Source: Raoultibacter massiliensis
GTDB taxonomy: Bacteria > Actinomycetota > Coriobacteriia > Coriobacteriales > Eggerthellaceae
Length of the DNA stretch: 40,132 bases
NCBI RefSeq assembly: GCF_900199545.1
Contig: NZ_LT962671.1
Location: 1,818,831 to 1,858,962 of the forward strand
Direction of reading: 5' to 3'
Made by a program: the position numbers and the translations under genes. Under the pieces are notes generated by a model. The model made no database searches. It had not been told where the DNA came from and was given only the letters and a program-made list of their open reading frames with translations. Position 1 is the stretch's first letter; the number at the start of each line of letters is the position of its first letter. Positions 16,971-19,900 of the stretch are shown here, one piece after another.

Positions 16971-19900
16971 TTATTCCTCGTCGTCGGAGCCCGAGTCGTC
17001 GTCGGAGCCGTTTCCGTCTCCGTCTTCGCTCTCGGACAACCCGAACCCGAACGAACCCACAGAGCCGAGCAGAGCATCGAGCTCTTCGAGGTTGCGCTGG
17101 TACGAACGCGGCGGCAGTGCTTCGCCGAGCATGTCCTCGCCCTCGGTGTTGAACGTCGGGGGCTCGTCGCCGCCGATGAGAATCGTATCATCCGGGCTGA
17201 ACACCATGTCGAGCAGCTGGCTCATGTCATCGCTCGTAGCGGTGAGGTCGTCCTCGATGACATGGAGCAGGTCGTGCTGCTCCAAGCCCTCCTTGAGCTC
17301 CTCGATCGCCTTCACGCCGATGCCTTCGATGCGCAGCAGATCCTCTTCCGTGTGGCCCACGAGATCGGCAACCGTCTCGATGCCCGCTTCGGAGAACTTG
17401 TTGGCCCAACGCTGCGACACGCCCAAATCGTCGTAGATGTAGAGACGCGCATCCTCGTCGGTCAGGTTGGGCGTGCGATGCCCGAGCGACATGCCGCTGT
17501 AGTAGTTCGTGTAATTCGTACCCATGTTGAGGTAGCTATCGCCGTCAAGCGACCAATCCTGCGGCTGGGGCAGAAGATCCTCGATATCGCGCAAAGCTTC
17601 GGGGGCGAACTCCGGCAGCGTATCGCTTGTCACGCGATCGACCGGGCGGCCCTTGTAGGTGAGGCCGACCTTGCGATAGCGCGGCAGACCCGTACCCGCC
17701 GGAATGGGCTTGCCGATGATGACGTTCTCCTTCAAGCCCGCAAGGTTGTCGATCTTGCCTTCGATGGCGGCATCGGTGAGAACCTTGGTGGTCTCCTGGA
17801 ACGACGCTGCCGAAAGGAAAGAATCGGTCGCAAGGGATGCCTTGGTGATGCCGAGCAGCAAAGGCTGGCCAACCGGCGGCTCTTTGCCATCGAGCACGAG
17901 GTTGTTTGCAACCTTCTCGAATTCGAAACGGTTCACCTGGCGACCCGGCAAGAAATCGGATTCGCCCGCATCGATGACGGCGACCTTGCGCAGCATCTGA
18001 CGTGCGATGACCTCGATGTGCTTGTCGTTGATATCGACGCCCTGGCTCACGTACACGCCCTGAACCTGGCTCACGATGTAGCGCAGCGTGGTGTTCGGAT
18101 CGGTGAGGCGCAGAAGGTCGTGCGGGTTCACGGAACCCTTGGTGAGCTGCTGGCCGACTTTCACCTGGCTGCCGTCGAGCACGCCCGGAAGCATCTGGGC
18201 GCGGGCGGAAACCACGTACTCGCGGAAGTTGCCCTGCTGGTCGTGGATCGTGATCGTCTTGGTTTGCTTGTCGCCCGAGATCTGCAGCGTACCTGCAATC
18301 TCGGCGAGCACCGCCTGGCCCTTCGGTTTGCGGGCTTCGAAAAGCTCGGTAACGCGGGGAAGGCCGTGGGTGATGTCCTCGCCGGCGACGCCGCCGGTGT
18401 GGAACGTTCTCATGGTGAGCTGCGTGCCGGGCTCGCCGATCGACTGGGCGGCAATGATGCCGACCGCGGTGCCGATGTTGACCGGGCGCGACGTCGCAAG
18501 ATCCCAACCGTAGCACTTCTGGCATACGCCCTGGTCGGCATGGCAAGTCATAACCGTGCGGATGGTGACTTCCTCGATGCCGTTGTCCTCGAGCGCCTTG
18601 ATCTGCGCCATGGACGTCACGTATTCGCCGGCGGCCACGATCATGGATCCGTCCTGCGCGACCGCATCTTCGAGCAGGCAGCGGCCGATGAGGTTCTCGT
18701 CCAGATCGCCCTTCTCGTTGTAGATGGGATAAGGCACGCCGTCGGTGGTGCCGCAATCGATCTCGCGGATGATGACATCCTGCGCGACGTCCACGAGACG
18801 GCGGGTCAGATACCCCGAGTCGGCGGTTCTGAGCGCCGTGTCGGCGAGACCCTTACGAGCGCCGTGCGTCGAGATGAAGTATTCGAGCACCGACAGGCCT
18901 TCGCGGAAGTTCGCCTTGATCGGGCGGTCGATGATCTCGCCCTTCGGGTCGGACATAAGACCGCGCATGCCCGCAAGCTGGCGGATCTGCTTGATGTTGC
19001 CTCGAGCGCCCGAGAACGCCATCATGTAGATGGGGTTGAACTTGTCGAAGTTCTCGGCCATCGCCTCGCCGACCTCTTCGTTGGCTTCGTTCCAGATGTC
19101 AACGACCTGCTTGTGGCGCTCCTCCTGGCTCATGAGGCCCATCTCGTAGTCCTCGTCGATCGCATCGACCTTCGCATCTGCGGCGGCGAGGATATCGCCC
19201 TTCTCCGGCGGCACGGTCGCATCGTACACCGAAACGGTGACGCCGGCGCGCGTTGCATAGTGGAAGCCCGCATCCTTCAAACCATCGAGTATGGCCGGCA
19301 TCTCGGAAAGCTCGTAGCGGTTGCAGCAATCCTCGACGAGGCGGCTGATCTCCTTTTTGTTCATCTCGTAGTTGAGATACGGATAATCATCGGGCAGAAC
19401 GTTGTTGAACGTAATGCGGCCGATCGTGGTTTCGATGCGCTCGCCGGCCTTGTGCTCCTCGAACTCGTTGTACGAGGTTGCGACCATGGTGTCCCTTTCG
19501 AGACGCACCCAGATCTTGGCCTGCAGGTCGAGTTCGGCGCGAGCGTCATAGGCGTTCATGGCGTCGTTGAAGTCGATGAACGACCTGCCTTCGCCCTCGA
19601 AGCCCTCGCGGGCAGCGGTCAGGTAGTACAAGCCGATGATCATATCCTGCGTCGGAACGGTCAAAGGACGGCCGTGGGCGGGCGATTTGATGTTGTTGGA
19701 CGACAGCATGAGCACGCGAGCCTCGGCCTGCGCCTCGTTGCCGAGCGGCACGTGCACAGCCATCTGGTCGCCATCGAAGTCGGCGTTGAACGCGGTGCAG
19801 ACGAGCGGATGGAGCCTGATGGCCTTGCCCTCGACGAGCACGGGTTCGAACGCCTGGATGCCCAAGCGATGCAGGGTGGGTGCGCGGTTAAGGAGCACCG

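Follow-up and report, generated by a model that had tools for sequence, protein, structure and literature searches.

Models of promoter recognition take the two C-terminal domains (CTDs) of the α subunits to be the sole arms of this kind on the bacterial core enzyme. At UP elements α R265 enters the DNA minor groove, and the contact residues of the α-CTD are R265, N268, C269, G296, K298, S299 and E302 (position numbers that we take to be those of E. coli α). Helix-hairpin-helix (HhH) domains of the α-CTD kind also occur elsewhere on the transcription machinery, as in the AR repeats at the C-terminus of E. coli NusA, where they are used for protein contacts. Here we describe rpoC, the gene for the β′ subunit, in a stretch of 40,132 nucleotides from Raoultibacter massiliensis (contig NZ_LT962671.1; the window), whose product, judged by sequence profiles and a structure model, almost certainly ends in a genuine α-CTD-type HhH domain. 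With such a domain on the end of β′, the polymerase may therefore have one more site at which to grip DNA or a partner protein.

The fusion is already known in annotation, since the NCBI family model NF011498 (PRK14906, DNA-directed RNA polymerase subunit beta') covers the long RpoC near end to end (2974.5 bits against a cut-off of 1437), and the corresponding CDD entry is presumably titled as a beta'/alpha domain fusion protein. This entry differs from the present description in being an annotation family name only, and we saw in it no statement on what the protein does, where it occurs, which residues make contacts or the zinc-type alternative described below. Precomputed annotation places PF03118, the Pfam family of the α-CTD, on each of the 120 listed proteins out of 1554 found. 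No paper describing a β′/α-CTD fusion was found in the literature searched, whose coverage is thin for subscription journals. The first-pass annotation of this DNA had held that β′ was not known to carry such a domain, which agrees with the papers and is corrected by the family model.

The additional domain of β′

Rpb1 domains 1 to 5 all lie in the single chain encoded by rpoC (Pfam hmmscan), identifying it as β′, and rpoB is its upstream neighbour (window 21395-24943). The NCBIfam match to TIGR02386 spans residues 13-1241, and the core common to RpoCs of other bacteria stops near residue 1243, leaving 231 extra residues; the first-pass annotation had recognized this extension and put its length at about 220. 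From the catalytic core the chain runs through a segment conserved in the class and then a variable linker into the α-CTD-type domain and finally an acidic tail (Table 1). Because many assemblies show a single frame that is open over about 1,400-1,600 residues, a fragment, a frameshift or a misassembly was rejected.

Scanned as a whole protein, β′ matches PF03118 (RNA_pol_A_CTD) at residues 1322-1372 over profile positions 16-66 of 67, scoring 37.9 bits where the cut-off is 23.8 (E = 1.5e-9; Pfam hmmscan), and the family also exceeds its cut-off in eight of ten relatives' tails scanned, the remaining two being of the zinc type. The NCBIfam rpoA models TIGR02027 (residues 1321-1376, E = 3.6e-8) and NF003519 (residues 1322-1376, E = 1.7e-8) match the same region, both under their full-length cut-offs, as expected because only one domain is present. 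Against PDB sequences α subunits rank first (phmmer, window 17250-17480; 3gfk_B, 8.1e-8) and NusA reaches only E = 0.2, although its AR repeats are likewise α-CTD-like HhH domains outside α. The helices of the predicted, not solved, structure and its structural matches fit the α-CTD fold, with α-CTD heading the matches listed; NusA chains are absent from these 50 matches, which excludes nothing. As PF03118, the PDB sequences, the NCBIfam models and the fold all point to α-CTD, we rejected a chance resemblance or a generic HhH. The alignment of residues 1318-1376 with the α-CTD, proposed in the first-pass annotation together with the pairs R1329/R265, N1332/N268, G1360/G296 and K1362/K298, is thus borne out in profile, predicted fold and each of the four residues.

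Only Rpb1-type domains lie N-terminal to the domain and no α N-terminal domain was found there; it is an α-CTD-like module on β′, not an α subunit, and hence present once per core enzyme. Using relatives that stand in for the window's genome, we found an RpoA-sized frame (311-392 residues) with PF03118 at 73-100 bits in 11 of the 12 first checked, whether or not they carry the fusion; in the remaining genome, G005, PF03118 had no match at all. Since α keeps its own CTD in the relatives, the β′ domain is an addition.

In alignment A1, which sets the window sequence beside 37 of the 39 tails prepared, the domain is nearly free of gaps and the linkers are highly variable. The Eggerthellaceae-type rows and rows L125-L134, which we take for Coriobacteriaceae or Atopobiaceae, have a tail beyond the domain, and the 11 other rows lack one. 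The stretch DDMSQLLDMVFSPDDTILIGG is strongly conserved in the acidic tail of the Eggerthellaceae-type rows, and rows L125-L134 carry a related one.

Distribution and the zinc-type alternative

A query taken from the RpoC C-terminus matched 148 of 149 genomes sampled from the class of Enteroscipio rubneri, which we take to be Coriobacteriia. The RpoC end was readable in 142 of the 149; of the other seven, six lack a convincing RpoC C-terminus, with matches at E 2.7e-5 or worse in five (G052, G087, G093, G146 and G154) and no match in one (G130), and one is cut by a contig end (G148). The α-CTD-like domain is present in 109 of the 142, 108 by domain profile and G075 on reading, which answers the first-pass annotation's call for a survey of the class. 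In the remaining 33 a tandem pair of zinc-finger-like modules takes its place, and the two lists do not overlap, so that no readable end carries both or neither. The counts of 108 and 33 were made by eye from the listed rows, with contigs checked against the RpoC C-terminal query matches, and group names for the genomes were assigned from the tree and identities. PF03118 itself matched 293 of 296 class genomes, mostly twice in each. Named Eggerthellaceae in this carrier class include Enteroscipio, Slackia and Adlercreutzia.

On a tree of RpoC cores the zinc type requires a single change, with weak support (49); the tree was built by a quick method from 102 rows and leaves out most of L018-L080 as well as cores that were short or repeated. 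The mutual exclusion of the two types may therefore reflect one replacement rather than many. The zinc-finger-like module itself (QC...DG..C.N.A..GS.YCG.H) stands in tandem at the RpoC end in 33 of 149 class genomes (loci L135-L144, L178 and L187-L194), and among the class loci read a single copy also ends NusA (five loci: L175-L177, L183, L184) and ribosomal protein L21 (four loci: L179-L182). Pfam names two of the zinc-module proteins as NusA and one as L21. Two class NusA proteins that were scanned have the module at their end and no PF03118 match. Some match to the module occurs in 146 of the 149 genomes, of which only part was inspected, and the motif was not found in the window's own frames of more than 80 residues.

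Beyond the class, one order of Thermoleophilia, represented by a Gaiellales record, has RpoC-sized PF03118 matches in 16 of 18 genomes. Two or more matches occur in 19 genomes of Thermoleophilia, and inspection took in all of these other than G407, G425 and G451. The Gaiellales tail, used as a protein query, returned 11 proteins, all of them RpoC with PF03118. In a sample of 75 genomes of the phylum such matches occur in six, of which five belong to the class and the sixth to the Thermoleophilia order, and a seventh large PF03118 frame was rejected as a BREX PglW kinase without an RpoC core. RpoC with PF03118 was not found in 71 genomes of a Bacillota sample, where the only PF03118 frames of more than 1,000 residues (G619 and G572) are not RpoC. 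Both these and PglW resemble the fusion in carrying PF03118 in a large frame but lack the RpoC core. Bacillota-sample loci L251-L253 encode large non-RpoC proteins with α-CTD-like repeats. In L018-L080, mostly from outside the Actinomycetota, RpoC tails measure 0-87 residues (L031 excepted), and no fusion outside the phylum was seen in these loci or in the 71 Bacillota-sample genomes, other phyla having had no dedicated survey. As to a common origin of the class and Thermoleophilia fusions, the domains of the two β′ sets share an identity of 0.34, no higher than that of either set with RpoA (0.36 and 0.36); the domain tree rests on only 60 columns, and on the RpoC-core tree a Solirubrobacteraceae row without the domain adjoins the Thermoleophilia group. 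The fusion represents a real variation in how RNA polymerase is built, found in most of one class and in a single order of a second class.

Contact residues and possible function

The window domain keeps the equivalents of R265, N268, G296, K298 and E302, with K at the position of C269 and A at that of S299. Across 53 distinct class domains (L006 and L171, ended early by frame or contig ends, are outside this set) the R265 equivalent is R in all 53, the C269 equivalent is K in 47 and the K298 equivalent is K in 46. The domain slices were chosen by a pattern that includes G296, K/R/T/Q298, A/S299 and E302, so that counts at 296, 298, 299 and 302 are partly by construction; positions 265, 268 and 269 lie outside it, and the R265 count is free of this selection bias. 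The RpoA comparison set, 12 of 18 fetched RpoA loci, was drawn with a pattern requiring R/K and N/S in the DNA-face helix, and its 100% R265 is therefore no evidence.

The favoured reading is a third α-CTD-like module that would contact upstream DNA or activators, which we regard as close to an even prospect. In it the domain, tethered to the β′ C-terminus beside ω, near which that terminus lies, would touch upstream DNA or a DNA-bound activator during initiation, at a point upstream of the two α-CTDs. The conserved R265/K269/K298 patch would form the contact surface, and the linker, some tens of residues long, would give the reach. Of the first-pass annotation's proposal of a third, β′-borne site, the fused domain, its predicted fold, the R265 equivalent and the presence in most of the class hold, and the DNA contact is what we infer from them. 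Should a third arm exist beside intact α-CTDs, the view of UP elements and activators in these bacteria would have to be revised; a single residue, R1329, and one removable domain would allow DNA binding to be separated from other roles.

Several observations weigh against upstream DNA or an activator as the target. G296 and K298 are common to HhH domains generally. The N268 equivalent is N in only 35 of the 53 class domains, the N294 equivalent is G in all 53 and the S299 equivalent is A in 52; a further difference from α is a G at the E261 equivalent. The class domains are also much more acidic, with a mean net charge of -5.4 (window -9) against -0.8 for the 12 RpoA CTDs, and in the window protein an acidic tail follows. 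In the Thermoleophilia order (L016, L155-L164) the R265 equivalent is Y in 11 of 11 distinct domains, all of which keep the K298 and S299 equivalents. The R265-type arginine argues for a putative DNA contact in the class, whereas the acidity, the partial loss of N268 and the Thermoleophilia tyrosine call for caution. No β′-CTD signature was found in the 15 + 9 + 17 rpoB or rpoB-like promoters compared. As to reach from this side of the enzyme, one study reports that dCas9-RpoZ (ω) fusions activate best when they lie upstream of the start by about 90 bases (PMC6021436), and another records no significant activation by dCas9-ω (PMC8096225).

The acidity, the altered positions 268, 294 and 299, and a Thermoleophilia order that lost R265 yet retains the domain suggest instead a protein-docking module, an α-CTD-derived adaptor, like the NusA AR repeats (themselves protein-protein adaptors), that would bind an α-CTD, σ region 4 or a class-specific factor. 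Both the Eggerthellaceae-type rows and L125-L134 have conserved short leucine-rich acidic motifs past the domain, which would suit the acidic tail as part of such an interface. The invariant arginine and the frequent lysine at 269 in the class speak against docking, as does the first place of α, rather than NusA, in the sequence search and at the head of the listed fold matches, and we hold this explanation to be credible if on the doubtful side. A β′ C-terminal head, CTD-like or zinc pair, might also act once initiation is over, its target being nascent RNA, the DNA duplex upstream or a coupled ribosome, as the module replacing the domain in 33 of 142 ends also closes NusA and L21; but a common small mobile module does not prove a common role and the α-CTD acts mainly in initiation, which makes a part in elongation or coupling improbable. 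That the domain is a generic or decayed HhH without specific role, or a chance resemblance, could be suggested by a weak HHH_5 match (1.7e-4, under its Pfam cut-off). This is disfavoured and very improbable, given a domain held in place in 109 of 142 genomes, nearly gap-free beside its variable linkers and matched to α-CTD by profile and fold.

Taken further, the β′ C-terminus could be an interchangeable docking port for a CTD-like domain or a zinc pair, giving a three-arm polymerase in most of the class whose third arm reads upstream DNA through the R265-type arginine, with the zinc module tying RpoC, NusA and L21 into one class-specific system. We consider this composite rather unlikely as a whole; the exchange of the domain for a module also found on NusA and L21 hints that parts of the transcription and translation machineries are linked in a way as yet unstudied.

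The rpoB promoter and other features of the window

The A/T-rich tract at the rpoB promoter, named in the first-pass annotation as a possible target of the β′ domain, is real, but it does not track the domain. Mean A+T fractions in 15 Eggerthellaceae-type promoters (window included) are 0.73 at -58..-38 and 0.65 at -80..-59, whereas nine other β′-CTD carriers give 0.53 and 0.29, and the 17 zinc-type genomes 0.54 and 0.30. The 40 relatives' promoters come from strict-pattern genomes (66 of 149) and were called rpoB-like by eye from the matched letters. As the carriers outside the Eggerthellaceae type resemble the zinc-type genomes, the long tract follows the Eggerthellaceae-type subset and not the domain. 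The tract is a UP-like element that is not assignable to β′, and it gives no evidence of a β′ contact.

Table 1. Features of rpoC and of the rpoB promoter in the window
Feature	Position	Strand	Basis
rpoC, RNA polymerase β′ subunit, 1474 residues	16971..21395	-	Pfam Rpb1 domains 1-5; NCBIfam NF011498 residues 2-1462
Conserved start of the extension, residues 1245-1279, LTYKG...LPEFAPEAL..IE.LLP	17559..17663	-	common to CTD-type and zinc-type relatives
Variable linker, residues 1280-1317	17445..17558	-	mostly low confidence in structure model
α-CTD-like domain of β′, residues 1318-1376 (Pfam core 1322-1372 = 17280-17432)	17268..17444	-	profile and fold matches
R1329, equivalent of α R265	17409..17411	-	R in 53/53 distinct class domains
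N1332, equivalent of α N268	17400..17402	-	N in 35/53 distinct class domains
G1360-V-K1362, equivalents of α G296 and K298 (HhH hairpin)	17310..17318	-	alignment
Acidic tail at the C-terminus (residues 1377-1474), containing the conserved DDMSQLLDMVFSPDDTILIGG	16974..17267	-	alignment A1, structure model
Promoter-like site of rpoB, TTGACG - 17 bp - TATTTT	25000..25028	-	sequence reading
UP-like A/T-rich tract reaching from the -35 box upstream to about -75	25029..25067	-	GC 32-37%

A box, TTGCGACT, lies at window 24986-24993 and is conserved after the -10 element of rpoB-like promoters (relatives L201-L250); in some genomes it also occurs at a second promoter just past rpoC. Of the 149 class genomes, 66 contain the combined promoter and TTGCGACT pattern and one contains its reversed control. 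Elsewhere in the window (7875-13478) a PPK2-type polyphosphate kinase gene (minus strand, 7875-9734) lies near one for a PPK1-type polyphosphate kinase (plus strand, 10839-13478).
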